Shown one piece after another: positions 22,420 to 40,707 of a stretch of 40,753 nt of DNA. The first letter of the stretch is position 1. Every line of letters begins with the position of its first letter. The notes beneath the pieces were generated by a model. It was not told the DNA's origin, did not search any database, and worked only from the letters and a program-made list of their open reading frames with translations. The stretch comes from Candidatus Zhuqueibacterota bacterium (GTDB taxonomy: Bacteria > Zhuqueibacterota > Zhuqueibacteria > Residuimicrobiales > Oceaniaggregativiventaceae). Location of the stretch: the NCBI GenBank assembly GCA_014728085.1, contig WJMF01000052.1:1-40753 (forward strand), given 5' to 3'. A program made the position numbers and the translations under genes.

Positions 22420-24318
22420 ATGCCACATATGATTATCGGCACAGCAGGCCACATCGATCATGGCAAATCCGCTCTTGTTAAAGCGCTGACCGGCACAGAT
22501 CCGGATCGCCTTCAGGAAGAGAAAAAACGGGGGTTGACGATTGATCTTGGTTTTGCTTTTCTCGATAAAGATATCGCTATTATCGACGTCCCGGGTCATG
22601 AAAAATTTGTAAAAAACATGGTTGCCGGTGTCAGTACGATAGATTTCGCCATATTGGTGGTCGCTGCCGATGACAGCGTCATGCCACAAACACGGGAACA
22701 TTTCGACATTCTCAAATTGCTGGATGTAGCAAACGGCATTATCGTCATCAATAAATGCGATCTCGTTGATGATGACTTGATGCAACTGGTAAAAGAGGAT
22801 ATCTCGGACTTGGTCAGAAACACGTTTCTGCAAAATGCCGACACATTCATCGTCTCCAGCACCACCGGCGAAGGAATCGACGCCTTGCGCAGCTATCTTC
22901 TCGGGTTGCCGGGGAAGATAAAACCCCGTACCGGGCAGGGTCTTTTCTGGATGCCTGTAGACCGTTCCTTTTCAATAAAGGGATTCGGTACCGTTGTAAC
23001 CGGGTCGGTACTGAGCGGTTCGGTGCGCGTTGGTGAAACAGTCGAACGGATTCCGGGTCGATTGCTCAAAATTCGCAATATTCAAAGCCATGGCAATAAA
23101 GTCGAGCAGGTAGCTGCAGGTGAACGCGCAGCCCTCAATCTGCACAATATCACCAAGGAAGAAATCAAACGCGGTGATGTATTGGCCACACCGGATTATT
23201 TCAAGCCAACAAATCGCCTCGATGCCAAACTCTATTTGCTGGAAAGCGCCCCGAAAACGCTTAAAAATCGCGTCCGTGTGCGCTTGCATCTGGGAACACA
23301 GGAGTTGTTCGCCCGGCTGACCCTGCTGGACCAGAAACACCTTTTGCCGGGCGAGTCCGCCTATGTGCAGCTGCATCTTGAGAAACAGACCGCAACCCGC
23401 CGACGCGAACACTATGTTATCAGACAATATTCCCCGGCCATTACCATCGGTGGAGGTATTGTTCTGGATGACCAAGCCGCTAAACACCGCCGCTTCGATT
23501 CCAATACCATCAAACAGCTGAAACAACTCGAACAACAGAATCCGGAAGAAATTGTTACGCTGACGCTTTTAAATACCCCCTATCAATGTCTCGGCTTGTC
23601 AGAGCTGGCGCGGCAAAGTGGCTTCCTTTCAGAAGAAATCAAACCCTATATCGATAAACTCGTCAATGACGGTGAGATAACTGTCCCTGGTAAGGGAAAC
23701 AAATCAGTCTATACCCATTCAGTTCACGTCCGGAGATTAAGCGAAACCATCATCAGAGTAATAACCGATTTTCATGAGGGGAATCCGTTAAAAGCGGGTA
23801 TAAGCAGGGCGGAGTTGAAGGAAAATTCAGGTCCAAAAATCTCCTCTATCCTTTTTGACTATGTGTTGCAAAAGCTTGTTGCAGAAAAGCAACTCGTTAC
23901 CGTTGACCGTTGGATTAAACGACGGGAACATGAGATTCGCCTTTCCGCCGGACAAAAAGCGCTGGCAGACCAAATCGAAGCCCTGCTGCTGAAATCGCCT
24001 TTCATGACGCCATCCCTGCAGGAGATAGCCGCTCAAATCGGAACCCCGGTTCAGGACATTGAAAAGGTAACCGGCGCTCTGCAGGGGCAAAATAAAGTCA
24101 TTCGGGCGGAAGGGGACCTCTACTTTCATCAAAATGCGATCGAAAAAGCGGAACAGATGTTGATTGAACTGTCTAAAAAACAGGAAGAAATGAGTGTAAG
24201 TGAGTTTCGCGAAATGCTCAATACCACTCGAAAGTTCGCGATGGGTTTGCTCGATTATTTCGACGCCAAAGGCCGTACAGAACGGGTGGGAGATACAAGA
24301 GTAATTCATCATGAATAA
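22420..24318 (+). CDS. selB: Selenocysteine-specific elongation factor SelB
   Basis: This 632-residue translational GTPase is close in length to known bacterial SelB. G1 is GHIDHGKS (residues 10-17), G3 DVPGH (56-60) and G4 NKCD (near 109). EF-Tu-like domains II and III follow, then a C-terminal part of winged-helix modules (segments such as QEIAAQIGTPVQDIEKVTGAL) that binds the SECIS hairpin of selenoprotein mRNAs. SelB delivers Sec-tRNA to in-frame UGA codons. The AAGGAAG about 9 nt upstream supports the ATG. selA, selC and selD are not in the window. It is 21 bp upstream of a lipoprotein gene in the same direction. Confidence 0.94.
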   Translation: MPHMIIGTAGHIDHGKSALVKALTGTDPDRLQEEKKRGLTIDLGFAFLDKDIAIIDVPGHEKFVKNMVAGVSTIDFAILVVAADDSVMPQTREHFDILKLLDVANGIIVINKCDLVDDDLMQLVKEDISDLVRNTFLQNADTFIVSSTTGEGIDALRSYLLGLPGKIKPRTGQGLFWMPVDRSFSIKGFGTVVTGSVLSGSVRVGETVERIPGRLLKIRNIQSHGNKVEQVAAGERAALNLHNITKEEIKRGDVLATPDYFKPTNRLDAKLYLLESAPKTLKNRVRVRLHLGTQELFARLTLLDQKHLLPGESAYVQLHLEKQTATRRREHYVIRQYSPAITIGGGIVLDDQAAKHRRFDSNTIKQLKQLEQQNPEEIVTLTLLNTPYQCLGLSELARQSGFLSEEIKPYIDKLVNDGEITVPGKGNKSVYTHSVHVRRLSETIIRVITDFHEGNPLKAGISRAELKENSGPKISSILFDYVLQKLVAEKQLVTVDRWIKRREHEIRLSAGQKALADQIEALLLKSPFMTPSLQEIAAQIGTPVQDIEKVTGALQGQNKVIRAEGDLYFHQNAIEKAEQMLIELSKKQEEMSVSEFREMLNTTRKFAMGLLDYFDAKGRTERVGDTRVIHHE

Positions 24319-24937: not shown

Positions 24938-26383
24938 TTAGGGAATGACAAAAATAAGCTGATTTCCTTTGATATAAATGGGATTACTGCCACCACCGCT
25001 TTGAATGGTCGCTTCATCGTTGGTGCTATCATAGGAAAGTTCCAGAGCAGCACCGGTCGTTGACCCGATGATGACATCTCCGGTTCTGTCGATGGTCGAG
25101 CCGGTTCCGGCCGTGCCGTTCCAGTAGGAAGCTCCGGTTTGGTCGCTTTGCGGGGCCCAGGCTGTACCGTTCCACTTTAACACCTGACCACTGCTTGGGG
25201 TCGTTGTGCTGACATTATTGCCCTGCAGTGCATCTGCATTCCACATCGCCGTGGTGGCGTCAGCATTAATGGTGGAGCCGCTGATCGTGATTCCGGTGCC
25301 ACCGGTGTAGGTGGTACCACCGTCATCCGCACCCGGCGTCCAGGCTGTACCGTTCCACTTCAACACCTGACCACTGCTTGGGGTCGTTGCGCTGACATTA
25401 TTGCCCTGCAGTGCATCTGCATTCCACATCGCGGTAGTCGCCCTGGCATTAAATGTGGTTCCGGAAAGCGTCATACCTGTACCGGCGCTGTACGTCGTGT
25501 TTGTATCAGTGCCGGGTTCCCAGTGATTTGAAGTCCCGTTCCATTTGAGTACCTGACCATTTGTTGACGGAGCGGTGGCGCTGATATCGCTGCCTTGCAG
25601 AGCATCTGCATTCCACATCGCCGTGGTGGCGTCAGCATTAATGGTGGAGCCGCTGATCGTGATTCCGGTACCACCGGTGTAGGTGGTACCACCGTCATCA
25701 GGTCCCGGTTCCCATCTTGATGCCGTGGCATTCCACTTCAGCACCTGTCCGTTTGTGGATGGAGCAGTAGCGCTTACATCACTACCCTGAAGAGCATTGG
25801 CATTCCACAATGCTGATGTGGTCTGGGCATTAAATGTCGTTCCGCTCAAATTCATACCCGTACCAGCAGAATATTCGGTGTTTGCATCAGCAGCCGGTTC
25901 CCACAAACTGGAAGTACCGTTATACTGTAACACCTGACCATCTGTGGGCGTGGTAGTGCTAACGCCGTGATCTCGTATACGGTCTGCATTCCACTGATCG
26001 ACATCACTGAGTGCGGAAAATTCGCCACTGTTGAGTTCCAGGGTAACGCCATCGGCAGTATAAGTCGTGCCGCCATCGTCTGCACCGGGTTCCCATTGCT
26101 GAGTCGTGGAATTCCATTTCAATACCTGACCATCTGTCGTCGGAGCCAGGCTCCAGCTGAGTACTCCACTGTCATCCTGAGAAAATGGTACCATACCAAG
26201 CACGGCTGTGCCGTGCTTGATTCGAACAGAATCCGCGGACAGGGTACGAAGAACATCCGTGTCCCCCTCATTGTTAACCGTCAAAACCATGATACCGCCC
26301 GTTGTTCGTACCTGCATCTGGGCAAAACCCATTCCGGCATACACGAAAAAAGCGAAAAGTACCAGCCCAAATAGTTTTCGCAT
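24938..26383 (-). CDS. Secreted tandem-repeat protein, unknown function
   Basis: This 481-residue protein has a signal peptide (MRKLFGLVLFAFFVYAGMGFAQ), a unique N-terminal region to about residue 84, five complete repeats of 61-64 residues (85-398), a partial sixth, and a unique C-terminal part ending in PIYIKGNQLIFVIP. Each unit contains phrases like GQVLKWNGT, DDGGTTYT, GTGITISGS and AMWNADALQG. Such Gly/Thr/Asn-rich beta-repeats occur in phage tail fibres and in large secreted or surface proteins of environmental bacteria. No autotransporter, type IX sorting or cell-wall anchor is evident. A strong AGGAGG SD supports the start. The function may be surface structure or binding; this is inference. 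Confidence 0.85.
   Translation of the reverse strand: MRKLFGLVLFAFFVYAGMGFAQMQVRTTGGIMVLTVNNEGDTDVLRTLSADSVRIKHGTAVLGMVPFSQDDSGVLSWSLAPTTDGQVLKWNSTTQQWEPGADDGGTTYTADGVTLELNSGEFSALSDVDQWNADRIRDHGVSTTTPTDGQVLQYNGTSSLWEPAADANTEYSAGTGMNLSGTTFNAQTTSALWNANALQGSDVSATAPSTNGQVLKWNATASRWEPGPDDGGTTYTGGTGITISGSTINADATTAMWNADALQGSDISATAPSTNGQVLKWNGTSNHWEPGTDTNTTYSAGTGMTLSGTTFNARATTAMWNADALQGNNVSATTPSSGQVLKWNGTAWTPGADDGGTTYTGGTGITISGSTINADATTAMWNADALQGNNVSTTTPSSGQVLKWNGTAWAPQSDQTGASYWNGTAGTGSTIDRTGDVIIGSTTGAALELSYDSTNDEATIQSGGGSNPIYIKGNQLIFVIP
25139..26131. repeat. Tandem coding repeats with alternating A/B unit types
   Basis: Five full units of about 183-192 bp plus a partial one make up the repeat array of the secreted protein gene. 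Units 3 and 5 share the TGGTGITISGSTINA type and units 2 and 4 the SAGTGMxLSGTTFNA type, so the array behaves as a two-unit higher-order repeat. The two 97-bp segments at 25231-25327 and 25603-25699 (offset 372 bp) differ at a single base. Confidence 0.9.
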
Positions 26384-26805: not shown

Positions 26806-29028
26806 ATGCCAAAATGGATATGCATTCTTTTGATCTTTGTTTTGGCCTGCCATGCTCAAGAGGTCATCTATTATGTTTCTCCGCAGGGAAATAACAGCTG
26901 GTCCGGAAAAATCGCCGTGCCAAACAAAGACCATAGCGATGGGCCCTTTCGCACACCGGAATGGGCACTTGCGGCAATTGAGAAAGAGAAATCTGAAAAA
27001 ATTATCGTCTATTTTCGTCAGGGCATTTACGCTTTGGACAGCACGATCAGCTTCCAGCCTGACCACAGCGGTACGGCTGACCGGCCGGTGATTTGGTCTG
27101 CTTTTGCCAACGAACATCCTGTGTTTACAGGGGCAAAAGCTTTAAACGGACACAAACGATCCACCCGCCCCTTTTTTAATTCAAAAGGTAAAAATCATAT
27201 CATTGAATATGATCTCGAAAAATTGGGCATTGTTGAATATGGCGGCATTGAGCCGCGCGGAGCGCCTCCGCTGCAACTCTTTTTCAACGGCCGCCGAATG
27301 ACCATGGCCAGATATCCGAATGAAGGCTGGCTCAGGGTCGCTGATGTACCTCAGCAGGGGGACTCGCTCTTTCACGAAGGGCTGGAAAGAGAAAAACGCT
27401 ATGACGGCGTTCCGGTGGGCAGACACTACGGCCGAATTGTCTACTCGGGCAACAGACCGAATAAATGGCACTCGCCACAACAGGCATACGTGCACGGCTA
27501 CTGGACATGGGACTGGAGCGATTCCTACCAAAAAATTGAACGCATCGACACTCTGAAAAAAGAAATCACCCTCGCTTCTCCACATCACCACTATGGCTAT
27601 ACCAAAAATCAGCGCTATTATTTTTTAAATATCATTGAAGAGCTCGATACCCCCGGTGAATGGGTTTTGGATCGTAAAGAAAGAAAAATGTATTTCTGGC
27701 CACCGGCAGATCCGGATTCGGCCGTTATATATGTTTCCACGCTTTCTCATCCAATGATGAGGATAAACGCTTCATATATATCGATTCGCGGGTTGAAATT
27801 CAGCTCGAGCCGGGGGGAAGGCGTCGTAATCGAAGGCGGTAACTATAATGAAATTGCCGGCTGTACCTTTCAACATCTTGGCAAACAAGCGGTGGTTATC
27901 AACGGAGGTAATCACAACGGCGTCAGCTCCTGCAATATATCCAATATGAGTCTTGGTGGCATTGTATTAAAAGGCGGAAACCGTCCGACCCTGCAACGCG
28001 GAGAAAACTATGCAGTCAATAATCATATCCATCATTTTAGTCAATGGATAAGAACCTGGCAACTGGCCATCGATTTATATGGCGTGGGCAATCGCATCGC
28101 TCATAATCTCATCCATGATGGGCCTCATGAAGCCATCTATGTGCGGGGAAACGATCACCTCGTCGAGTTTAACGAAATTCACAGTGTCTGTCAGGAAACC
28201 GGAGATGCCGGGGCAATTCATACGGGCAGAGATTACACCTGGCGGGGAAATGTATACCGTTATAACTATATTCACCATCTTCAGGGCCAGGGACTGCACG
28301 GCGTGACTGCACTTTATCTGGACGATTTTAGTTCCGGCTATACACTCTATGGCAACATCTGCTACCGTTCAGGACGAGGGACATTGATCGGCGGCGGTCG
28401 CGATAATGTAATACAAAACAATCTCTTCATCGACTGCCACCCTTCTATTCTTCTCGATGCCCGGGGATTGAGCTGGGCTTTTTATTATTTTGACGGTACC
28501 TATAATGTGCTCTGGGAAAGAATGGCGGCTATGAATGCCACCCAACCTCCTTTTAGCCGACGCTATCCCGAGCTGCTGACGCTTAAAGAGGATAATCCCG
28601 CCGTACCCAAAAACAACCGTATCCTGAACAATGTTTCCACTGGCGGACGCTGGATCGAGCTCTACGATTACTATGCCTTTGAACCAGATGTCTATACGAT
28701 AAAGAATAATCTCATCGCAGATGCGGAAATATTAAAGCGTATTCAATCCCCTCCAAACGGCTGGGAGCCCTATTATCTCGATCTCAACTCGACAGAGGGA
28801 TATATTGTTTTTGACAATAATGATACCCCTGCAAACGACCTGCTTCCGGGCAATATGATAACGGATAATGCCGGTCTGAAAGAAACGGAGAATAAACGCT
28901 TTACGCTCAAGCCGACCAGTCCCGCTTTTGAGCTGGGCTTTAAAGCGATCCCTGTCGACAGCATTGGATTGATATCAGACCGTTACCGAAAGCTGCCGGC
29001 CGATAACAACAACGCTACAATGCAATAG
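26806..29028 (+). CDS. Secreted right-handed beta-helix protein, probable glycan-active enzyme (paralogue 1)
   Basis: This 740-residue protein has a short signal with a possible lipobox (VLAC, Cys15). It opens with YYVSPQGNNSWSG and a DGPF segment typical of beta-helix carbohydrate-active proteins. A large central region (about 300-560) is rich in short repeats with N, H and G (HNLIHDGPHEAIYVRGNDH, NYIHHLQGQGLHG, GGGRDNVIQNN), as in parallel beta-helix folds. Long members of this kind include GH141-type glycosidases and some lyases; I cannot assign the activity. The SD AAAGGA supports the start. It is the first gene of a six-gene operon and is paralogous to the gene at 29907-32171. Confidence 0.85.
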   Translation: MPKWICILLIFVLACHAQEVIYYVSPQGNNSWSGKIAVPNKDHSDGPFRTPEWALAAIEKEKSEKIIVYFRQGIYALDSTISFQPDHSGTADRPVIWSAFANEHPVFTGAKALNGHKRSTRPFFNSKGKNHIIEYDLEKLGIVEYGGIEPRGAPPLQLFFNGRRMTMARYPNEGWLRVADVPQQGDSLFHEGLEREKRYDGVPVGRHYGRIVYSGNRPNKWHSPQQAYVHGYWTWDWSDSYQKIERIDTLKKEITLASPHHHYGYTKNQRYYFLNIIEELDTPGEWVLDRKERKMYFWPPADPDSAVIYVSTLSHPMMRINASYISIRGLKFSSSRGEGVVIEGGNYNEIAGCTFQHLGKQAVVINGGNHNGVSSCNISNMSLGGIVLKGGNRPTLQRGENYAVNNHIHHFSQWIRTWQLAIDLYGVGNRIAHNLIHDGPHEAIYVRGNDHLVEFNEIHSVCQETGDAGAIHTGRDYTWRGNVYRYNYIHHLQGQGLHGVTALYLDDFSSGYTLYGNICYRSGRGTLIGGGRDNVIQNNLFIDCHPSILLDARGLSWAFYYFDGTYNVLWERMAAMNATQPPFSRRYPELLTLKEDNPAVPKNNRILNNVSTGGRWIELYDYYAFEPDVYTIKNNLIADAEILKRIQSPPNGWEPYYLDLNSTEGYIVFDNNDTPANDLLPGNMITDNAGLKETENKRFTLKPTSPAFELGFKAIPVDSIGLISDRYRKLPADNNNATMQ

Positions 29029-29055
29029 CCGGATTCAAGGAGCAAGGAGAAAAAA

Positions 29056-29910
29056 ATGAAACTTGGAATTCATGCTTATGCCTGGTGCTCTCAATGGAGC
29101 AACGATACGCTGGATATCATAGACCGGGTTAAAAAACTAGGTCTCGATTTTATCGAAATTCCCTTAATGGTACTCGAAACCTTTGATGCAATGGCCGTAC
29201 GGCAGAGGCTGGAAAAGGTGGGGATCGATGTCTGCACCTCTACTGTTCTGCTCAATGACACCGACATCACCAGCGAGGATGAAACGATCCGCAAAAAAGG
29301 GGTAGACTATCTCAAAGCGTGTGTGCGTGCGACCAGCGAAATCGGAGCGCACAATCTATCCGGTGTAATCTATTCCCAACACGTCAAGCCGACAATCAAG
29401 GCGCCTACGGAAAAAGAATGGCAATATTCGGCAGACTGCCTGCGCAACGTTGCAAAATATGCCCAGCACTATAATGTCCGGATCGGCCTTGAACCGGTCA
29501 ACCGCTATGAGACGTTTCTCATCAATACCTGTTCGCAGGCGTTGCGCCTGAAGGACATGATCGGCGAAGAAAACGTTAAAATTCATCTGGACACCTATCA
29601 CATGAATATCGAAGAAAAGAATTTTTATGACGCCACCATGCAAGCGGGCAAGGACCTGATTCATTATCATCTTTGTGAAAATGACCGCGGCATACCCGGC
29701 ACCGGCCTGGTCAACTGGGATGATATTTTTCGCGCCCTCGGTGAACTGAATTACCAGGGATATGCCGCACTCGAATCCTTTGTAGATATGACCGATAACA
29801 TGAACACCTGGGTTTGGCGCCGGCTGGCCAGAAACGGGGACACGCTGGTTCACGAGGGTATAGCTTTTATTAAAGAACTGATGAAAAAATACAATCTGGG
29901 TACGTCATGA
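29056..29910 (+). CDS. Sugar isomerase/epimerase of the D-tagatose 3-epimerase type
   Basis: This 284-residue TIM-barrel enzyme belongs to the AP endonuclease 2/xylose isomerase-like superfamily. Metal ligands expected in D-tagatose/D-psicose 3-epimerases are at matching spacing: Glu146 (LEPVNRYE), Asp179 (HLDTYHMNIEE), His205 (HYHLCENDRG) and Glu240 (ALESF). Such enzymes epimerise ketohexoses at C3 through a cis-enediolate with Mn2+ or Co2+. No signal peptide is present, so it acts in the cytoplasm. AGGAG precedes the ATG by about 7 nt. Its stop overlaps the start of the second beta-helix gene by 4 bp, so translation is coupled. The family call is firm; the natural sugar is unknown. Confidence 0.92.
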   Translation: MKLGIHAYAWCSQWSNDTLDIIDRVKKLGLDFIEIPLMVLETFDAMAVRQRLEKVGIDVCTSTVLLNDTDITSEDETIRKKGVDYLKACVRATSEIGAHNLSGVIYSQHVKPTIKAPTEKEWQYSADCLRNVAKYAQHYNVRIGLEPVNRYETFLINTCSQALRLKDMIGEENVKIHLDTYHMNIEEKNFYDATMQAGKDLIHYHLCENDRGIPGTGLVNWDDIFRALGELNYQGYAALESFVDMTDNMNTWVWRRLARNGDTLVHEGIAFIKELMKKYNLGTS

Positions 29911-32171
29911 AAAAGACACAAAAAATGATCAGCGCAGCGACAGTCCTCGTCTTTTTGATCTCTTTTAGCTGTGACCGACAGGAATTGGGCGACAATGCAT
30001 TTTTTATTTCTTTGGAGGGTAACGATAACTGGTCCGGCCGCCTGGCTACGCCGAACAAGAACAAAACAGATGGTCCGTTTGCCACGTTTCAAAAGGCTAA
30101 ATCAGCGGTGCGCGGCCTGAAAAAATCAGATTCACTGACCGCTCCCGTTCATGTTTATGTGCGGGGCGGAGATTATGAATTCAGAACCTTTCTTCAACTG
30201 AATGAAAAGGATAGCGGAACACCCGTTTCTCCGGTCAAATGGCAGGCCTATCCGAATGAAAAGGTTACGCTGAGGGGGAGCAAAATCATTACCGGATTCA
30301 AAACGGTTTCGGACAGCAGCATTCTCAAACGATTTACCCCCCAGGCCCGCGATCATGTTTTGATGGCAAACCTAAAAGCTCAGGGGATTCAGGATTACGG
30401 ACGGCTCAAAGCAAAAGGCTTTGGACGCAAACCAATCCAACCCCTCGCTATGGAGCTCTTTTTCAATCAGCAGCCGATGGTCCTGGCGCGTTATCCGAAT
30501 GACGGCTGGCTGACCATCAAAAAGGTGCCACAAAACGGTGGCAAACCGGAACATGCCGGCAGCGCTGGTAATTTGTTTAACGGTATCCCTGCCGGCCGTC
30601 ACTATGGACGCTTTGAATATAATGGCAATCGTCCGAGTCGATGGCATTCCTTTGACGACATATGGATGCACGGTTTCTGGACATGGGACTGGGCCGACAC
30701 CTATGACAAGGTGGCAGAAATCGACACGACAAACAACCTGATCTATCCGGCAAAGCCCTATTGCAACTACGGTTATCGCCAGGGACAGCGATATTATTTT
30801 CTCAACGTTTTGGAAGAACTGGACTCCCCCAAAGAATACTATCTTGATCGCAATAACGGCGTTCTCTATTTCTGGCCGCCCTCCTCTGTTAAAGGAGGAA
30901 AAGCCGAGGTCTCGATGCTGACCGATCCTTTTTTTCGGCTCGATAATTGCCGTCATATTGAGATCAACGGATTCATTTTCCAGGCCTGTCGGGGCAAGGC
31001 CTGTGTGGTGACCGGCGGCGAACGGAATGTGATCGCGGGCTCTGTTTTCCGCAATATCGGTAATGAAGCGGCAGTCTTTGAACAGGGCTATCAAAACGGC
31101 ATAAAAAGCTGTAACCTCTACAACCTTGCCGGTACGGCAATAAAACTGCACGGTGGGGACCGGCTTTCGCTGAAACCGGGAAAACTCTATGCGATCAATA
31201 ACCATATTCACCATTACGACAGGATATTTTATACCTACCAGGCCGCTATAGATATCGATGGTGTGGAAAACCGTGCTGCTCACAATCTTATCCATGATGC
31301 TCCGCATATGGCCATCCTTTTCCGTGGCAATGAACATCTTTTGGAATATAACGAGGTCCATACCATCGCCGAAGAAACCGGGGATGTCGGGGCTTTTTAT
31401 CTCGGCCGCGACTGGACCTGTCGCGGCAACGAGATTCGCTATAACTATTTTCATCACATGCACGGACCGGGATTACACGGCGTCAATGCTGTCTATCTGG
31501 ACGATTTTGCCAGCGGCACACTGGTATATGGTAATCTTTTTTACAAGGTTGACCGCGGTGCCTTTATCGGCGGCGGCCGGGATAATATCATCAAAAATAA
31601 TATTTTTGTCGACTGCTTTCCATCCATTCATGTAGACGCCAGGGGACTGGGATGGGCGGATAAATACTTTACCGGTGAGGTGACAACCCTTTATGACCGA
31701 ATGGATGCAATGAACTATAAGCAGCCCCCCTACAGCGAAAGATATCCTGAATTGCTGATGCTCTATGACGATGAACCCGCCGTGGCAAAGGGTAATGTGA
31801 TTACACAAAACATTTCCTACCAGGGTCGCTGGATGGATATATATGATGGTCTGGATTTTAATGATCTCCGCGTAAAAGATAACCTGATCGCAGCTTCCGA
31901 GCCAAGCCAATGGTCTCCATTTGACGATCATGTCACCGAGGAAAAAAACTGGATTTATCTAACCTTTGAAAACGATGACGTTCCGGATGAACTCAGAAAC
32001 AACCAAAATCTCGTCATCGACCATGACCCCGGTTTCAAAAATGCTGAAAACAAAAACTGGAATCTGGAAAAAAACGCTCCCGCTTTCGAGCTGGGGTTTC
32101 AGCCGATTCCTATAAAAAAAACAGGATTGGAAAGCGATAAATATCGAAAGGCGCTGCAAAATCTGAAATAG
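29907..32171 (+). CDS. Secreted right-handed beta-helix protein, probable glycan-active enzyme (paralogue 2)
   Basis: This 754-residue protein resembles the product of 26806-29028 along its whole length. Shared landmarks are NWSGRLATPNK near the N-terminus, the GRHYGR...YNGNRPSRWH block, the WTWDW segment, the beta-helix core with NLIHDAPHMAILFRGNEHL and GGGRDNIIKNN, and a similar C-terminus (FELGFQPIPI). The N-terminal signal MKKTQKMISAATVLVFLISFSC may be lipidated at Cys22; an Asp at +2 would keep it at the inner membrane under E. coli rules. The activity is unknown. The gene starts inside the last codons of the epimerase gene (ATGA), so the three genes form a tight unit, and duplication of an ancestor is likely. 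Confidence 0.85.
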   Translation: MKKTQKMISAATVLVFLISFSCDRQELGDNAFFISLEGNDNWSGRLATPNKNKTDGPFATFQKAKSAVRGLKKSDSLTAPVHVYVRGGDYEFRTFLQLNEKDSGTPVSPVKWQAYPNEKVTLRGSKIITGFKTVSDSSILKRFTPQARDHVLMANLKAQGIQDYGRLKAKGFGRKPIQPLAMELFFNQQPMVLARYPNDGWLTIKKVPQNGGKPEHAGSAGNLFNGIPAGRHYGRFEYNGNRPSRWHSFDDIWMHGFWTWDWADTYDKVAEIDTTNNLIYPAKPYCNYGYRQGQRYYFLNVLEELDSPKEYYLDRNNGVLYFWPPSSVKGGKAEVSMLTDPFFRLDNCRHIEINGFIFQACRGKACVVTGGERNVIAGSVFRNIGNEAAVFEQGYQNGIKSCNLYNLAGTAIKLHGGDRLSLKPGKLYAINNHIHHYDRIFYTYQAAIDIDGVENRAAHNLIHDAPHMAILFRGNEHLLEYNEVHTIAEETGDVGAFYLGRDWTCRGNEIRYNYFHHMHGPGLHGVNAVYLDDFASGTLVYGNLFYKVDRGAFIGGGRDNIIKNNIFVDCFPSIHVDARGLGWADKYFTGEVTTLYDRMDAMNYKQPPYSERYPELLMLYDDEPAVAKGNVITQNISYQGRWMDIYDGLDFNDLRVKDNLIAASEPSQWSPFDDHVTEEKNWIYLTFENDDVPDELRNNQNLVIDHDPGFKNAENKNWNLEKNAPAFELGFQPIPIKKTGLESDKYRKALQNLK

Positions 32172-32200
32172 ATCATCTTAAAAACAGACAGGTAATTAAA

Positions 32201-33361
32201 ATGACCTCAAAAGAGAGAATGGTAACAGCCATTGAAAACAAGATACCGGATCGCCTGCCGGTAACAACACACCACGTTATGGAATCGTTCCTGAAGGATA
32301 AACTGGATGGAATGTCGACACAGAAATTCTTTGACGAGTTTGATCTTGATCCGATCCACTGGACGGTTCCCCACAAGGCGGATAAAGAGAAAGGGTTTTT
32401 TATCGATCCCGACCGCACCGAGCCGGGATTCCTGCAAAGCAGATGGATATTCAGCGACTCGTGGAGCATTGATTCACAACCGGTCACAGACTCACAATAT
32501 GATTCCGAACGCTTTACCATCCATACCCCAAAGGGGGATTTGACCATGGTACTGCAATCAAATCCACATACTGCATGGGTATGGGAGCACCCGGTCAAAG
32601 AAAAAAAAGATATCGATCTTTTGGCTGCCTATATGACATATCCGTTATGTGATGTTGACCAGGTAAATAAAGAAGCAGAAAAATTCGGACAACGGGGATT
32701 AATCCGAGGACATATCGTCGGCTTTGACATTTACGGCCAACCCGGATGCTGGCAGGATGCCTGTTGTCTCGTCGGTACGGAGCAAATGATCATGTATGCC
32801 TATGATGATCCCGAATGGGTTCACGAATTTTTAACGATTTTGCTGCACCGGAAGAAAAAATTTGTTCAATCCCTTAAAGGGGCCAAATATGATATTCTTG
32901 AGCTTGGCGGTGGCGATGCTTCTACGACCGTTATCTCTCCGAAAATATTCAATGAATTCGTTGCCCCCTATGATAGTCAGTTGATTGCCCTGGCACATGA
33001 TGCTGGTCAGAGGATCGTCTACCATACCTGCGGCGGCATGATGCCGATACTTGAAGATATCGCATCAATGCAGCCAGACGCCATGGAAACGTTTACACCT
33101 CCTGAAATGGGAGCGGACGTGAATCTGGCGGAGGCCAAAAAACGCATCGGCACCAAAGTCGCCATGATCGGCGGATTCGATCAGGTCCATTATTTTACCG
33201 GTTGCTCTCCTCAGGAAACCAGAGCAGCGGTCCGGCGCTGCTTTGAAGAGGCCGGCGATAATGGCGGTTATATACTGGCTCCGTCCGATCACTTCTTCGA
33301 AGCGGAAATCGATTTGCTACACGCTTTTGTTGATGAAGCAAAATCATGCACATATCACTAA
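32201..33361 (+). CDS. Uroporphyrinogen decarboxylase-like protein (COG0407 type)
   Basis: This 386-residue protein belongs to the UroD/MtaA/CmuA superfamily, with the opening MTSKERMVTAIENKIPDRLPV and a HTCGG motif (His275, Cys277). Related cobamide methyltransferases bind zinc through His-x-Cys and a later Cys. Here the corresponding C-terminal segment reads ILAPSDHFF with Asp363 and His364 instead of Cys, so it may not be a standard methyltransferase. True haem-pathway UroD would be unusual in a sugar operon. COG0407-type proteins often sit in carbohydrate clusters of environmental bacteria, but their reaction is unclear. It has an SD (CAGGTAA) and follows the beta-helix gene by 29 bp. Confidence 0.85.
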   Translation: MTSKERMVTAIENKIPDRLPVTTHHVMESFLKDKLDGMSTQKFFDEFDLDPIHWTVPHKADKEKGFFIDPDRTEPGFLQSRWIFSDSWSIDSQPVTDSQYDSERFTIHTPKGDLTMVLQSNPHTAWVWEHPVKEKKDIDLLAAYMTYPLCDVDQVNKEAEKFGQRGLIRGHIVGFDIYGQPGCWQDACCLVGTEQMIMYAYDDPEWVHEFLTILLHRKKKFVQSLKGAKYDILELGGGDASTTVISPKIFNEFVAPYDSQLIALAHDAGQRIVYHTCGGMMPILEDIASMQPDAMETFTPPEMGADVNLAEAKKRIGTKVAMIGGFDQVHYFTGCSPQETRAAVRRCFEEAGDNGGYILAPSDHFFEAEIDLLHAFVDEAKSCTYH

Positions 33362-33376
33362 ACAGAGGATCTATCT

Positions 33377-34555
33377 ATGGATAAAAACCAGCGCGATCAC
33401 TATTTACAACTCTACAGAGATGGCTTGCTAAACAACACTCTGCCGTTCTGGATAAAAAGTGCTGTTGATTCGAAAGACGGTGGTTATCTGTTTTGTCTGG
33501 ACCGGGACGGCACAATCGTAAGCACGGATAAACCCATGTGGATCCACGGTCGATTCGTCTGGTTGCTCGCAACGCTTTACGATACAGTCGAAAAAAGAGA
33601 AGAATGGCTTGATCTGGCGCGCCATGGTATGGAATTTATCGATAAATACGGTTTTGATCAGGATGGCCGTATGTTTTTTATGGTGACCAAAAAGGGAAAA
33701 CCCCTGCGCAAGCGCCGTTACCTTTTTACGGAATCCTTTGCCGTGATTGCCATGGCTGCGTTGGCCAAAGCTACCGGCGACGCCAAATGGGCAAAGCGAG
33801 CCCTGGATCTTTTCAAACTGATTATCCATTATCATACAACGCCCGGCCTGTTACCACCCAAAATCATACCCGAAACACGTCAAGGCAAAGCCCTGGCCAT
33901 GCCCATGATTCTGATCGCAACTGCTCAGGTTCTGAGAACGGCCGTTTCCGATCCGGTTTGTGAAGAATGGATCGACAGATCGATTAAAGAGATCAAAACC
34001 GATTTTATGAGAGAAGAATTTTCAGCCGTAATCGAATCCACCGGTCCAAAAGGTGAATTCATGGATACCTTTGAAGGCAGAATGATCTGTCCCGGGCACG
34101 CCATCGAGGCCGGCTGGTTTATTCTGCATGAGGCCAAATGGCGCAACAACGATACTGCTCTCAGAGATATCGGATTAAAAATCCTCGAGTGGTCCTGGAA
34201 ATGGGGCTGGGACGAAAAACACGGTGGCATTCTATACTATCGCGATGCCAAAGGACATCCGCCGGCCGAATACTGGCACGATATGAAATTCTGGTGGCCG
34301 CAAAATGAAGCCGTTATCGCCACCCTGCTCGCCTATGAACTGACAAAAGATGAAAAGTATCTGCAATGGCATCAAATGGCGCATGACTGGGCCTATAAAC
34401 ACCTTCCCGATCCTGAATACGGAGAATGGTTCGGCTATTTACATCGCGATGGCACGATTTCTTCAACTCTGAAAGGCAATTATTGGAAAGGTCCTTTTCA
34501 TCTACCGCGAATGCAGCTCTATTGCTGGAAATTGCTTGAGGAACTGAAATTGTAA
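33377..34555 (+). CDS. AGE-family (N-acylglucosamine 2-epimerase-like) sugar epimerase/isomerase
   Basis: This 392-residue (alpha/alpha)6-barrel protein has the expected catalytic histidines: His241 in CPGHAIEAGW and His375 in GPFHLPRM. MWIHGRFVW (residues 54-62) and WWPQNEA (306-312) line the pocket. AGE-superfamily members interconvert N-acylhexosamines, or aldoses and ketoses such as mannose/fructose and cellobiose/glucosyl-mannose. No signal peptide is seen, so the reaction is cytoplasmic. An AGAGGATC SD precedes the ATG. It follows the UroD-like gene by 15 bp. A partner of the tagatose-epimerase-like enzyme in converting a released sugar is inferred from position. Confidence 0.9.
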   Translation: MDKNQRDHYLQLYRDGLLNNTLPFWIKSAVDSKDGGYLFCLDRDGTIVSTDKPMWIHGRFVWLLATLYDTVEKREEWLDLARHGMEFIDKYGFDQDGRMFFMVTKKGKPLRKRRYLFTESFAVIAMAALAKATGDAKWAKRALDLFKLIIHYHTTPGLLPPKIIPETRQGKALAMPMILIATAQVLRTAVSDPVCEEWIDRSIKEIKTDFMREEFSAVIESTGPKGEFMDTFEGRMICPGHAIEAGWFILHEAKWRNNDTALRDIGLKILEWSWKWGWDEKHGGILYYRDAKGHPPAEYWHDMKFWWPQNEAVIATLLAYELTKDEKYLQWHQMAHDWAYKHLPDPEYGEWFGYLHRDGTISSTLKGNYWKGPFHLPRMQLYCWKLLEELKL

Positions 34556-34609
34556 AAATCCGGTGTCTCACCGGAACAACAAGGTCGCAAAACGGAAAGG
34601 ATCCGTTAC

Positions 34610-36337
34610 ATGCAGTGGATCTGTGTTTTCCTGCTTTTACTTAATGGTATTGTAAACGCTCAATATGGAGATGTCTTATATTGCTTTGACTTTGGTGGAG
34701 CGTTTCAGGATGTTGAGCCGGGGTATACGGCCGTTTCGCGAGTTTATCACAGTCCCAGGTATTTATGGATCGACAATGTCAGGGAGATAGAGTATTATGA
34801 TTCAAAAAACCCCCTTTTAAAGGATTTTGTCAGCAGTGACAAGGGAGAATTTCGGGTCGGGCTGGATAATGGAACTTATTATATCACCTTCATCATGCAT
34901 GATGCCCGCTCGGAACACGGACCCTTTAGCATTTATATTCAGGATAGCCTGGTCTCCTCCGATATAAAAGTCGAGGCTTCTGACACGCTTTTTCTCTCCT
35001 TCCCTGCACGGATCGATAATCAGGTATTGAAAATCCGTTTGCTGTCGCCATCACATCAGGGATCGTTTATCCTGAACGGTTTGACCATCAGAGGCCAGGC
35101 CGGGAAATCCTTGAGGAAAATGTTCGAAAAAGCGCCGCCGGATCAGTTACCGACAGTCGATGAAGTTTTTAAAAAAGGGCTGGTTGACACCCGGCAAACC
35201 CTTAAAGCCTGTTGCGACTGGCTGCTGGCGCACAGATTGCCGAATGGCTTTCTTGGCGATTACGAACACGGAGAAAAGGGAACCCGATACTGGTGGTATA
35301 CTTCAGCCTACCCCATCCGTACCCTGTTGGCCGCGTATGATATATTTGGAGAAAAACACTATCTGAATGCAGTCACCCGGATTCTGGATAAGCTTGTTGA
35401 GGAACAACTACCGAATGGCGCCTGGCACCAGACTTATCGCAATAAACCTACTTCCAGTCTCGGTAAATCCGAGTTGGACAGCATCATGACCACCCAGTGG
35501 ATGAATCTGGCTGATATCGGCAGCATCGCAACAGCATTGGGCGTTTCAATTCAATATGTCGATGCTCAAAGAAAAGAAAAATATGAGCAATCCCTGAAGC
35601 GATTTTGTCGGGAATGGGCAATGCAGTGGCAACGGCCCTCCGGCGGCTTTACCAATGGCATGGAGAGCGGTGTGGCGAGAAAACGCGAATACAGCGTCGC
35701 CACAGCCACACAAACAGCAGCGTTCACAACCCTTTATTGCGCCGGCGGTGAAAAACAGTTCCTCAGTGTGGCTGAACGCGCTGCCTGGTTCCTGTTGCAG
35801 AATTGGAAGCAAGATGGCAGACCTGTTTCGCATGCCCACATCTCGGTTAAAGAGGGTGCCGTTTATGACCAACCCGTTACTCATTTTGGAGATAATTTTT
35901 ATTACAGCGACGGTATCTTGATGCTCTATCACCATACCGAGGATTCTCTTTTAAAGAATAAAATTGAACAGGTCTACGGATGGTATCTGAAAGGAGAAAA
36001 AGGTCTGCTTAATACTCTGGATAACCGTTCCTGGTTTCCCCTGCAGGACGCATGGAATAATTCAAAGACCGCCGGCATTCCTCTTGCTTTTCTCGTCTAC
36101 CAGCAAGCCTGCAATGATGCCGCTATAGATCGCGCTATTGCCATGTTCAAGCGCTTTTTATGTACACCCGCCTTTGCCCGGCGAATCGGCATCATGGTCG
36201 AAGACGCCGACCTGCCCCGGGGAAAACACAGCCTTCAAACATGGGCCGGTTGCAGTGTCTCTGCAACCGGATTTGCCGGCCTCAGCATCGCAGAAATGAT
36301 TAAACCGGGCGTGGTTTTTTTGTCACTGATAAAATAA
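34610..36337 (+). CDS. Secreted two-domain protein: malectin/CBM-like N-domain plus (alpha/alpha)-barrel, unknown activity
   Basis: This 575-residue protein has a signal peptide (MQWICVFLLLLNGIVNAQ). Residues about 22-165 look like a beta-sandwich with CFDFGG, EPGYTAVSRVY and FILNGLTIRG. This resembles the N-domain of rhamnogalacturonan-processing esterases/lyases (FDFG...PGYT pattern). The C-terminal part from about 190 is helical, with WWYTSAYPIRTLLAAYD, GAWHQTYR, SGGFTNGMESG and GDNFYYSDGILMLYHH, typical of six-hairpin glycosidases. I do not recognise a catalytic signature with certainty. AAAGGA precedes the ATG. It closes the plus-strand operon and is convergent with the GH51 gene; no terminator is visible in the 57-bp gap. 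Confidence 0.75.
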   Translation: MQWICVFLLLLNGIVNAQYGDVLYCFDFGGAFQDVEPGYTAVSRVYHSPRYLWIDNVREIEYYDSKNPLLKDFVSSDKGEFRVGLDNGTYYITFIMHDARSEHGPFSIYIQDSLVSSDIKVEASDTLFLSFPARIDNQVLKIRLLSPSHQGSFILNGLTIRGQAGKSLRKMFEKAPPDQLPTVDEVFKKGLVDTRQTLKACCDWLLAHRLPNGFLGDYEHGEKGTRYWWYTSAYPIRTLLAAYDIFGEKHYLNAVTRILDKLVEEQLPNGAWHQTYRNKPTSSLGKSELDSIMTTQWMNLADIGSIATALGVSIQYVDAQRKEKYEQSLKRFCREWAMQWQRPSGGFTNGMESGVARKREYSVATATQTAAFTTLYCAGGEKQFLSVAERAAWFLLQNWKQDGRPVSHAHISVKEGAVYDQPVTHFGDNFYYSDGILMLYHHTEDSLLKNKIEQVYGWYLKGEKGLLNTLDNRSWFPLQDAWNNSKTAGIPLAFLVYQQACNDAAIDRAIAMFKRFLCTPAFARRIGIMVEDADLPRGKHSLQTWAGCSVSATGFAGLSIAEMIKPGVVFLSLIK

Positions 36338-36394: not shown

Positions 36395-37939
36395 CTAATA
36401 GAGGTCGAGGACAGCGATCGATTTTGAGGGTAAATCGATTATCACCTCTCCCGCTTCCAATTGAGCTCCACCAAAAGCTGTGGGTTTTACCACGTCGGGT
36501 TTTTCAAAAGTATTATGACTGCTGATCTCGCCCGCTGTCAATATTCTGCCGTTGACGGACTTTGCCGTTTGGCCGGAAATTTTGCAGCGAACTCTTCGAG
36601 GCTTGTGCGGATCGACATTGCAGAATGACACGGTAATGCTGCCGTTTTGTTGTTTGCTGGCTGATGCACTGACGGCTTGAATCGCTTCTCCGTTCATCTT
36701 GTACGAGCCGGAATCAAAGGAAACCGGCAACATCCTGGCATTTTGATGATTTTTAAACAGCTCGAACACCCAATAGGTCGGCGTCAGGATCATCCCGTCC
36801 TTTTGCGTCAGAATCATGGATTGCAGTACATTTACCGTCTGGGCAATATTGGCCATCCGCACCCGGTCGCAGTGTTTGTGAAAAATGTGTAATGTCAATG
36901 CCGCCACCATGGCATCGCGCATGGTGTTTTGCTGATAAAGAAAACCGGGATTTGTACCGGGCTCCACTTCGTGCCAGGTCCCCCATTCGTCGACCATTAA
37001 TCCAATGCGTTTTTCCGGATCATATTTGTCCATAATCGTGGAATGCCGTTGAATGAGGTCATCGATATGCAGGGCTTTTTTCAACGTTGTGAAATATTCT
37101 GCTTCTGTGAATTGTGTTGCCGATCCCTTGTCTTGCCATGTCCCGGTTACAGTGTAATAATGAAAGGAGAGACCGTGCATTCGGCCGGCAGCCTCCCGCA
37201 TGAGGACCTCCGTCCAGTCGTAATCGTCGTTATAAGATCCGCAAGCGATTTTGAAGAGTTTGTTTCCGGAGAAATTTCTCAGGTAGGTCTGATAGCGCTT
37301 GTATAAATCCGCATAATATTGCGGACGCATATTGCCGCCGCAGCCCCAGTTCTCATTTCCCACGCCCCAGAATCTGACATTCCAGGGTTTATCGCGTCCA
37401 TTTCGGCGCCGCCAATCGGCCATAGGACTCTTGCCGTCAAAAGTGATATACTCCACCCACTCTTGCATCTCTTTAACCTCTCCACTGCCGACATTACCGC
37501 AAATGTAGGGTTCACAGCCGAGCTGCCCGCATAAATCGAGGAATTCATGCGTTCCGAAATGGTTATTCTCGGAGACGCCACCCCAGTGTGTATTGATCAT
37601 GGATGGGCGCTGTTCATAAGGGCCGATGCCGTCCTTCCAGTGATATTCATCGGCAAAGCAACCACCGGGCCAGCGCAGTACCGGAACAGAGAGCTGTTTT
37701 AACGATTCTACAACATCATTTCGAATTCCACGCGTATTGGGTATCTCCGAATCCAATCCAACCCAAAATCCTTCATAAATACATCTGCCCAAATGTTCGG
37801 AAAAATGGCCATAAATATCGGCATTGATTTCCTGCGTTCCCAAATTAGCATAAATCTCCATAGACAATTCCTCATCATTCGTTCCAGCCGTAACGGACCA
37901 GGTACACAGAGATATTACTAAAAGAATAATGGTTCTCAT
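36395..37939 (-). CDS. GH51 alpha-L-arabinofuranosidase, secreted
   Basis: This 514-residue glycosidase has a signal peptide (about 19 residues, SVTAGT region). GNENWG contains the acid/base Glu196, and VDEWGTWHE carries the nucleophile Glu318. [13 protein letters not shown] is another GH51 hallmark, and a C-terminal beta-sandwich follows. GH51 enzymes release terminal alpha-L-arabinofuranose from arabinans and arabinoxylans by retention. Many GH51 enzymes are cytoplasmic, so the signal peptide is notable. AGGAGG precedes the ATG by about 6 nt. It is the last gene of the sulfatase-dehydrogenase-GH51 operon, 64 bp after the dehydrogenase gene. Confidence 0.93.
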
Positions 37940-38003
37940 AGCTATCCTCCTGTGAACAGACCCTTGAAAATACTTTGGTAGAAAAAACGCTTAAAAAGTG
38001 TAA

Positions 38004-39065
38004 TCACTTTGTCAAATCCAAAACGATCTTGAGTATCTGTTGCGGATAGTTGTCGAGCAATTCAAAAGCGGACATGGCCCTGGAAACGGGCAGAATTTTG
38101 GTGATCAGAGCATCGGGATCAAGAGTACCCGCTGCCAGCGCCTTGCCGGCCTCACCGAATTCACCATGACTGACCCGGGAGGCAATAATTTGCCCTTCTT
38201 TCCAGATGAGTTCTTTAAACACCACAGGAGCAGGATCATCTGCGAGTCCCAGAACACAAACGGTTCCCCGGCCGCGAATCGCCTGTATGCATCCGCGTAT
38301 CGGATTGGGGCGATCCGGTACGATTTGAGCATGCCCAACCGCCTCAAAGGCAATGTCCACTCCCTCGCCGCCGGTTTCCTTGCGGATAATCTGCATGGGA
38401 TCCTCTCGCTGAAGCAGTACAGGAATGATTGTCTTGTCGTAACGGCGCGCGATTTGTAAACGCTCTTCTATTATATCGACCATAAAAATCGGCTTTTGAT
38501 TGCGGGTCCTGACGGCCTGGGCAATGGAATGGCCTATTCTGCCTCCTCCCCATATCAATACCGTATCTTCCGGTTGTAACCCGGCCCGGTTACAGGCATG
38601 AAAACCGATGGAATACATTTCAATCAGAGCGGCGTGATGTAAGGGTATGCGTTTGTCCAGTTTATAAACCATGGATGCATCTGCAGCAACATATTGGGCA
38701 AAGCCGCCATTCATATCGACGCCCAAAAGTTTCAGAGAGGTACAGGCGGAATAAAATCCTCTGCCGCAGGCAACACATTGACCGCAGGGTATAATCGGAT
38801 CCACGGTAACGTGATCGCCGTACCCGAGATTCTTAACCTCTCCTCCGACGCGTTCGATAACGCCGGCAAATTCATGTCCCTGGGCAAAGGGAATGGGAGT
38901 ACGCGGATCAAAGTCCCCCTTGAATATATGCTGATCGCTACCACAAATGCCGGTATAATGTACCCGAACCAGGACCTGTTTGTTTGAGATGTCGGGTTTG
39001 GGCAGTTGCTTCCACTGAATATTGCCGTAAGGTCCCAGAACGGCCGCCATCATATTCTCATTCAT
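38004..39065 (-). CDS. Zinc-dependent alcohol/polyol dehydrogenase (MDR family)
   Basis: This 353-residue medium-chain dehydrogenase has catalytic zinc ligands Cys41 (GICGSDQH) and His64-Glu65 (QGHE). A structural zinc lobe CGQCVACGRGFYSAC follows, then a Rossmann NAD(P)-binding motif in VLIWGGGRIGHSIAQ. Sorbitol, L-threonine and sugar/galactitol dehydrogenases share this layout; the substrate is likely a polyol or sugar in this locus. ATG 39065 begins one base after the sulfatase stop (TAGC ATG), with TGGAG about 8 nt upstream in the end of that gene, so it is tightly coupled. A longer reading to 39110 lies inside the sulfatase gene and is not believed. Confidence 0.92.
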   Translation of the reverse strand: MNENMMAAVLGPYGNIQWKQLPKPDISNKQVLVRVHYTGICGSDQHIFKGDFDPRTPIPFAQGHEFAGVIERVGGEVKNLGYGDHVTVDPIIPCGQCVACGRGFYSACTSLKLLGVDMNGGFAQYVAADASMVYKLDKRIPLHHAALIEMYSIGFHACNRAGLQPEDTVLIWGGGRIGHSIAQAVRTRNQKPIFMVDIIEERLQIARRYDKTIIPVLLQREDPMQIIRKETGGEGVDIAFEAVGHAQIVPDRPNPIRGCIQAIRGRGTVCVLGLADDPAPVVFKELIWKEGQIIASRVSHGEFGEAGKALAAGTLDPDALITKILPVSRAMSAFELLDNYPQQILKIVLDLTK

Positions 39066-39066
39066 G

Positions 39067-40581
39067 CTATTCACTCCACAATTCAGGATCAAGAGGATCT
39101 CTGGTATCATTAAATTGTTGTCGTAATGTTTCCAGATCGCGTTTCAACTTTGCAACAAGATGCCGGTAATCCGGATTGTCATATTGATTCTCCAGTTCAT
39201 TCGGATCGGTTCTCAGATCATACAATTCCCAGCAGCGTTCAGGTGAATGGCCCATTTGCACCAGGCCATAATAGTAGATCAATTTATACCGTTGTGTGCG
39301 GATACCGTAATGAGCCGGGCGCTCGGGTTGATGCATCCAGTAATGGTAATACATGGCTTGACGCCAGTTTTTTGGTGAACGGCCCTGCAAATTTTGACGA
39401 AAACTCGATCCCTGCATGGAATCGGGAATGTGAATACCGGCATAATCGAGAAACAGGCCGGCAAAATCGATATTCAGAATAATATCCCCGATTGTCGAAC
39501 CGGCTGCAATTTCTCCGGGATAACGAATGACAAAAGGCATGCGCATGGATTGCTCGAGCATAAAGCGCTTATCGAACAGGTTATGTTCGCCGAGAAAATA
39601 TCCCTGATCGGACGTATAAATGACTACCGTATTCTCGCGCAGATTATTCTCGTCGAGATAATCGAGCAAGCGACCGATGTTGTCATCAATACCGGCAACC
39701 GCACGCAGATAATCCTTTATAAATTTTTGATACGTTGCCTTTAAAAGAGTCTTTTCATCCGCTTTATCCGTTATCGAAAGCCGTGGCGGTGGATAGCGTT
39801 CGGGATTATTCAGATACCTTTGCGCCAAAATCTGCAGCGGCCAGCCTTCAAACCGCTTGCCCACCGGACTCGAAGGCCGGTAAAGGTCCTGTGGTTCAGG
39901 GATATGGACGTTGGCGAGCAAATCGCGATAACGGTCATGACTGTAGAACGGTTCATGGACAGCTTTGAAATGACACATCAGACAAAACGGAGAGCTTGAG
40001 TTTTTTCTCTGCTGCAGCCATTGCAAAGACTGATCCGTGATAACATCAGTCGAATGTCCCTTTACCTCTATCCCCTCGCCCTGCCAGTCTTTTCCGGCCT
40101 GATAAAATACCGGATCGTGATACCTGCCCTGCCGACGTAAAACACTGTAATAATCAAATCCCTCTGGTCGTTCTTTCAGATGCCACTTGCCGATAACGGC
40201 GGTCTCATAACCGTTTTCTCTCAAAAGTTTGGCGACATGCTTCCGCTCCGGTACAAGCCTCCCGTCCAGACGCTTTGCGCCATGAATATGGCTGTATTGG
40301 CCGGTTAAAATGGTTGCCCGGCTGGGGACACAGATGGAATTGGTACAAAAACAGTTCTGCAGCAAAGCGCCCTCGGAGCGTAACCGATCTATATTTTCCG
40401 TTGGTGTATAAGGCTGCAGACGGGAGCCATAACATCCCCATGCCTGACTGGTGTGGTCATCAGCCATGATGAACAATATATTGGGGGGCCTGGATTCAGC
40501 TTTGCGGCAGTTCAGGGTGTGCAAGAACACAGCAGACGGGGCTGCCGATAGCGACAACTCTAAAAATTTTCTTCGATTCAT
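39067..40581 (-). CDS. Type I sulfatase with Tat-type signal
   Basis: This 504-residue sulfatase opens with MNRRKFLEL, a twin-arginine signal, followed by a hydrophobic stretch. The sulfatase signature ICVPSRATILTG contains Cys84, the residue converted to formylglycine in C-x-P-S-R. Asp41 and Asp42 are metal ligands, and TSDQGYFLGEHN supplies others. It removes sulfate esters from a carbohydrate and would be exported folded. The formylglycine-generating enzyme or anSME needed for activation is not in the window. The start at 40581 fits the signal; the upstream frame to 40698 lacks a plausible N-terminus and overlaps the promoter. It is the first gene of the operon with the dehydrogenase and GH51 genes. 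Confidence 0.93.
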   Translation of the reverse strand: MNRRKFLELSLSAAPSAVFLHTLNCRKAESRPPNILFIMADDHTSQAWGCYGSRLQPYTPTENIDRLRSEGALLQNCFCTNSICVPSRATILTGQYSHIHGAKRLDGRLVPERKHVAKLLRENGYETAVIGKWHLKERPEGFDYYSVLRRQGRYHDPVFYQAGKDWQGEGIEVKGHSTDVITDQSLQWLQQRKNSSSPFCLMCHFKAVHEPFYSHDRYRDLLANVHIPEPQDLYRPSSPVGKRFEGWPLQILAQRYLNNPERYPPPRLSITDKADEKTLLKATYQKFIKDYLRAVAGIDDNIGRLLDYLDENNLRENTVVIYTSDQGYFLGEHNLFDKRFMLEQSMRMPFVIRYPGEIAAGSTIGDIILNIDFAGLFLDYAGIHIPDSMQGSSFRQNLQGRSPKNWRQAMYYHYWMHQPERPAHYGIRTQRYKLIYYYGLVQMGHSPERCWELYDLRTDPNELENQYDNPDYRHLVAKLKRDLETLRQQFNDTRDPLDPELWSE

Positions 40582-40707
40582 ATTCACCAACCATTGTTTG
40601 TAATACATATGTATAGGGAATCGAAAAATGTTTACATGACTGCTTTCCCTCTTTTGCAAAGATGATTCGGCGGATGAAAAAAAATCAAACCGAACCAAAT
40701 AGAATTC

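Follow-up and report, generated by a model that had tools for sequence, protein, structure and literature searches.

A glycan-directed six-gene operon of a Zhuqueibacterota bacterium joins GH141-like beta-helix proteins and sugar isomerases to a candidate corrinoid-dependent methyltransferase

Glycoside hydrolase (GH) family 141 comprises right-handed parallel beta-helix enzymes such as the alpha-L-fucosidase BT_1002, the xylanase Xyn141E and the Wf141 endo-fucanases, and the catalytic Asp pair of BT_1002 is D523/D564 (PMC12786026). The UroD superfamily, in turn, holds corrinoid-dependent methyltransferases (MtaA/CmuA, the O-demethylases OdmB/VdmB and the Mlp proteins), in which His-Cys-Cys marks S-methyltransferases, whereas O-methyltransferases have a carboxylate or a non-coordinating residue in place of Cys (PMC10418091). 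The corrinoid O-demethylases in the literature found act on aromatic ethers; for a methylated sugar, 6-O-methyl-D-galactose, PMC10033563 describes aerobic O-demethylation by a cytochrome P450. Here we compare these systems with six adjacent genes, BH1, TIM, BH2, URO, AGE and TOR, carried on a 40,753-nucleotide stretch of DNA ("the window") that forms contig 165 of the 5.19 Mb genome of a Candidatus Zhuqueibacterota bacterium. The operon is real and glycan-directed. Our tentative reading is that it serves glycan degradation and includes a corrinoid-dependent methyltransferase, most likely one that demethylates O-methyl sugars. The evidence points to URO, the UroD-like gene that an earlier, sequence-only description of this DNA (the first-pass annotation) had left unexplained, as the most interesting member and a likely corrinoid methyltransferase.

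URO carries the superfamily domain (URO-D, PF01208; E=1.6e-23, 83.8 bits against a cut-off of 23.9), and its best NCBIfam matches are the MtaA/CmuA methyltransferases. With the corrinoid-dependent members it shares the superfamily, the HxC motif and the presence of corrinoid genes beside its orthologues. The HxC residues of MtaA are zinc ligands, and URO has its own HxC in register with them (Table 1). The predicted third ligand differs: coenzyme M methyltransferases and the UroD genes of two related loci (L075, L090) have Cys ("APGC") at this position, whereas the URO orthologues there have an invariant Asp ("PSDHFF"), as in the O-type enzymes. Across 12 orthologues the predicted pattern is thus of O type, with H275, C277 and D363. 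URO also differs from the characterised group in its setting, since it sits among glycoside hydrolase and sugar isomerase genes in an operon without a corrinoid or RACE gene. We consider URO a likely corrinoid methyltransferase because of this metal-ligand pattern together with the neighbours of its relatives. Uroporphyrinogen decarboxylase was rejected as an assignment, the hemE equivalog scoring 18.9 bits against a cut-off of 303 (E=6e-4). UroD matches in a plasmid collection were weak only, with CmuA among them.

Gene neighbourhoods were compared in 60 related genomes, all within the source's small phylum (82 species), by tblastn and blastp of the window proteins on the neighbourhoods of relatives. 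The most informative part of the operon is the BH2-URO pair. It is found linked once more in a genome of a different family, G049, where a corrinoid protein accompanies it. The run in that genome (L075) reads UroD-CobW-UroD-M14-corrinoid-BH2 orthologue-BNR-URO, and its URO orthologue lies less than 5 kb from the genome's only stand-alone corrinoid gene. At a second locus (L085, genome G037) the URO orthologue adjoins the only PF02607 corrinoid gene found in that genome. Corrinoid genes within 5 kb of URO were therefore seen twice, against 0.06 expected (P ~0.002). The corrinoid proteins of both loci score best as methyltransferase partners of the MtgC/MtbC type, above MetH, though below curated cut-offs.

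Further associations lead in the same direction. A UroD gene lies within 5 kb of 8 of the 28 beta-helix (BH) loci, against 1.1 expected, and when related cases are collapsed the count is 4 against 0.7 (P ~0.005). A BNR_2 protein links the two families, in the order BH-BNR-URO in G049, BNR-SSF-URO in G002 and G003, and BH1-BNR in G029. Over the 60 genomes URO (present in 11), BNR (9) and BH (19) co-occur with P values of 6e-6 to 2e-4, kinship ignored. More generally, in related genomes URO lies near BH, BNR, GH1, SSF or sugar-ABC genes; in G009 and G020 URO stands beside a TIM-barrel isomerase, homologues of which flank corrinoid genes in G022, G027, G029, G032 and G056. These recurrence statistics support a link between BH, URO and corrinoid genes, and they are supportive only, because shared ancestry was ignored and the choice of sets was post hoc.

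BH1 and BH2, at 45% identity over 749 columns, are paralogous, as the first-pass annotation had said. Its word "duplicated" should not, however, be taken to mean a recent tandem duplication. That reading is rejected by the tree: the two proteins belong to different clades, and in G002 and G003 each has orthologues of its own at separate loci, so the pair is old. BH1 matches the Pfam family Beta_helix (E=2.8e-16) and scores 26.7 bits with the GH141_M profile against a cut-off of 27, over 34 residues of the insertion domain only; BH2 has no match to this profile. The AlphaFold2 model of BH1 (predicted local distance difference test score (pLDDT) 87, predicted template modelling score (pTM) 0.89) is a right-handed parallel beta-helix, and a Foldseek search with it returned GH141 BT_1002 as the nearest fold (5mqp; E=1.2e-23, TMt 0.62), the next family being GH120 (E=2.6e-13). 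By sequence, the beta-helix proteins match BT_1002 and 9rx2 in the PDB, a "parallel beta-helix repeat protein" (E=6.1e-37 with BH1), for which our literature search found no paper. The BH proteins thus resemble GH141 in the parallel beta-helix, an N-terminal block and two Asp residues at the same motif positions (Table 1), an agreement that includes the GH141_M-positive outgroup at L170; the register is set by motif and not by BT_1002 residue numbering. The equivalent residues of BH2 are D493/D532. BH1 differs from GH141 in its low identity to BT_1002 (~17% in the fold alignment) and in a GH141_M match just under the cut-off.

Relatives of the beta-helix proteins often have carbohydrate genes as neighbours. 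Genes for a GH29 alpha-L-fucosidase and a UroD protein come after one BH1 relative (L067), another (L063) adjoins an apiosidase-type GH gene, and a Paenibacillus plasmid carries a BH relative next to GH2, GH88 and sugar ABC transport genes; homologues in the plasmid collection have ~25-30% identity. Some BH relatives in the related genomes stand alone. Separately, three genomes pair a different UroD-like gene with a beta-helix gene of a more remote clade (own contig 213, L190:1583-6038; L065; L066). On contig 213 a gene for an aldolase-like secreted protein (L190:5070-6038) adjoins this pair, and a similar secreted protein adjoins the BNR gene of G020 (L237:2265-3251).

Both presumed cytoplasmic isomerases belong to well-described families. 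TIM matches AP_endonuc_2 (E=1.2e-40) and can be aligned over its whole length with D-tagatose 3-epimerases of solved structure (E=5.2e-49 with PDB 7ern). It is like the D-tagatose 3-epimerase/D-allulose 3-epimerase family in its full length and active-site blocks, and differs in scoring 220 bits with NF051856, under the D-psicose 3-epimerase equivalog cut-off of 300. AGE matches GlcNAc_2-epim (E=3e-45) and, from end to end, RsAGE (PDB 8bry; E=3.4e-149, 500 bits), with both His motifs, PGHAIE and FHLPR, aligned; it differs in scoring 382 bits with the NCBIfam equivalog, whose cut-off is 600, and in having no sialate genes adjoining. The Pfam matches of BH1, TIM, URO and AGE bear out the families first named for them.

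The secreted protein TOR has no Pfam family above cut-off, and its AlphaFold2 model is of low confidence (pLDDT 64, pTM 0.59). The (alpha/alpha)6 barrel of this model resembles GH76, glucuronyl C5-epimerase and the N-acylglucosamine 2-epimerase family, and its beta-sandwich N-domain resembles CBM35/malectin; because of the low model confidence, these matches are only a hint at its class. TOR orthologues were found in four relatives (L170, L171, L172, L173), where they are followed by an SSF symporter and, contig permitting, a GH141 gene. In the two with intact context, L170 and L172, the order is TOR, SSF symporter, GH141-type beta-helix gene, so that TOR and GH141-type proteins are linked again, in other arrangements. 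In L170 and L171 the gene before TOR encodes a large protein with no Pfam family.

The six genes are same-strand open reading frames (ORFs) at 26806-36337, each with an ATG start. Their spacings in order (27, -4, 29, 15 and 54 bp) agree with the tight packing first described, gaps of 15-54 bp or a 4-bp overlap, and this spacing suggests co-transcription. A scan for promoters and terminators gave sites barely above shuffled sequence and no clear internal boundary. We take all six genes as real because each has relatives with open frames in related genomes, at 45-71% identity; a 363-aa antisense ORF over the BH2 gene is a by-product of coding. No SusC/D gene is present among the window ORFs, and the locus is therefore not a Bacteroidota-type polysaccharide utilisation locus, which has a SusC/SusD pair. 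Nor is there a transporter within the six-gene run, also as first noted; an MFS gene lies close by, outside the run (20853-22226, minus).

Table 1 Genes and candidate functional residues of the operon
Feature	Position	Strand	Description
BH1	26806..29028	+	740 aa, right-handed beta-helix, secreted/lipoprotein-like, GH141-like
D467 codon of BH1	28204..28206	+	Candidate catalytic Asp 1 (GDAGA); Asp in all 27 aligned BH members and both GH141 outgroups
D506 codon of BH1	28321..28323	+	Candidate catalytic Asp 2 (YLDD); Asp in every BH member covering the position and both GH141 outgroups
TIM	29056..29910	+	284 aa, D-tagatose/D-psicose 3-epimerase-type ketose 3-epimerase
BH2	29907..32171	+	754 aa, second GH141-like beta-helix protein
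URO	32201..33361	+	386 aa, UroD superfamily, predicted corrinoid-dependent methyltransferase
H275-x-C277 codons of URO	33023..33031	+	Predicted zinc ligands 1 and 2; invariant in 12 aligned orthologues; aligned with HxC of MtaA 4ay7
D363 codon of URO	33287..33289	+	Predicted third zinc ligand; invariant in 12 orthologues; placed by motif register with Cys-type UroD homologues (L075, L090)
AGE	33377..34555	+	392 aa, N-acylglucosamine-2-epimerase-type isomerase
TOR	34610..36337	+	575 aa, secreted, two domains: CBM35/malectin-like and (alpha/alpha)6-barrel

In the model that we tentatively prefer, the operon would provide lineage-specific glycan degradation in an organism with a Wood-Ljungdahl branch. 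BH1, BH2 and TOR would be exported and cleave polysaccharide, the first two as GH141-like glycosidases with an Asp/Asp pair, probably with fucose-containing chains or ones like them, perhaps methylated, as substrate. TIM and AGE would then epimerise the released sugars in the cytoplasm. The suggestion that secreted glycan cleavage and cytoplasmic isomerisation are encoded together was made from the start, and the predicted folds, conserved candidate catalytic residues and family matches support it. URO would act as a zinc- and corrinoid-dependent methyltransferase, most likely taking the O-methyl group off a released methyl sugar and handing it to a corrinoid protein whose gene lies elsewhere in the genome. 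Methyl transfer by URO, a sugar as the methyl donor and the identity of the glycan are the steps that we infer. The genome encodes one methyltransferase-type corrinoid protein (contig C9), CODH/ACS with CdhD (C242) and two RACE activators (C178, C182), of which at least one belongs with CODH/ACS. A run of corrinoid protein, GHMP kinase and DegT aminotransferase genes on contig 9 (L189:9769-12773) is also seen at L220, L222, L226 and L228.

Several observations weigh against this model. No corrinoid protein, RACE or tetrahydrofolate (H4folate) methyltransferase gene was found in or near the operon, and the corrinoid gene on C9 stands beside a GHMP kinase among housekeeping genes. A homocysteine methyltransferase gene lies near the CODH/ACS cluster (L235, own contig 242) and, because it is a separate gene, methionine synthesis may be a further role of the corrinoid protein, or its only one. 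The match of URO to MtaA 4ay7 is weak (E=6e-6 with a profile), and when the literature was searched for methyl-sugar demethylation by corrinoid enzymes, the only cases found were aromatic or S-/halogen-methyl ones. UroD-like genes are numerous, with 20 matches in this genome, so some UroD neighbourhoods arise by chance. Finally, none of the 60 related genomes showed the six-gene order around the orthologues: at most two of the six occur together, the genes mostly lie apart, and the orthologues of AGE, TIM and TOR have other partners elsewhere. The six-gene set is a lineage-specific local assembly, not a conserved locus. The neighbourhood search called for in the first-pass annotation therefore gave a mixed answer, in that the full order is absent and subsets recur; its view that this is not a described locus holds, there being no match in the literature or relatives searched.

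It is quite possible that the operon is a plain glycan-degradation operon, with BH1, BH2 and TOR as the glycan-cutting enzymes, TIM and AGE as isomerases of the sugars, and URO as a passenger or a protein unconnected with methyl groups. Support for the glycan enzymes is good, UroD-like genes are common across the phylum, and outside the genome itself BH2 and URO orthologues are neighbours in G049 only. Against a passenger role stand the corrinoid proteins beside URO orthologues in G037 and G049, the invariance of the predicted zinc-ligand residues, and the finding of BH and UroD genes together more often than expected.

Alternatively, URO may be a corrinoid methyltransferase whose methyl donor is a thiol, an amine or an aromatic compound and which is only co-regulated with the sugar genes. 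The characterised relatives in the literature found do use S-, halogen- or aromatic O-methyl donors (PMC10418091). A predicted third ligand of Asp, not Cys, speaks against a thiol, however, as does the company of URO against any such donor, both among the sugar enzymes here and near carbohydrate-related genes in relatives, and we regard this option as unlikely. Breakdown of amino sugars or sialic acid, in which AGE would be an N-acetylmannosamine (ManNAc) 2-epimerase and the beta-helix proteins would attack such glycans as exo-glycosidases, is improbable: although AGE is closest to RsAGE, a 55% AGE orthologue in L182 sits between a DHDPS/NanA-like gene and a NanM-SSF fusion, and sialate O-acetylesterase-type and GH20 genes occur elsewhere in the window, the operon has no NanA, NanM or sialidase genes, the closer AGE orthologues (68-70%) adjoin GH4 and not sialate genes, and the literature searched reports no GH141 protein with sialidase activity.

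The operon is bordered by genes of varied kinds. On its 5' side, across a 422-bp gap, lies the divergent gene of a secreted 481-aa protein with tail-fibre-like repeats (WNADALQG...) and no family above cut-off (24938-26383, minus), and before it a gene for the elongation factor SelB (22420-24318, plus), from which we conclude that the organism probably makes selenoproteins. On the 3' side a convergent GH51-like arabinofuranosidase gene ends 57 bp from the operon; with the zinc alcohol dehydrogenase and sulfatase (CVPSR motif) genes upstream of it on the minus strand, it forms a second carbohydrate group, tail to tail with the operon (36395-40698, minus).

O-methyl sugars are present in pectin and in algal and bacterial polysaccharides. 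Returning to the methyltransferase reading of URO, its fullest form is an anaerobic corrinoid-dependent O-demethylase for methylated sugars, tied to GH141-like degradation, whose methyl groups enter the Wood-Ljungdahl or methionine pathway; this we put forward as a doubtful proposal. Such an enzyme would share with the P450 route (PMC10033563) the demethylation of a methyl sugar during glycan use, and would differ from that oxidative, corrinoid-free route with its formaldehyde product. If true, it would be the counterpart to the aerobic P450 route and would explain how anaerobes finish methylated glycans without oxygen. Sugar-derived methyl groups would then feed one-carbon metabolism, and of the many uncharacterised UroD-like families in which these genomes abound, one would gain a function.

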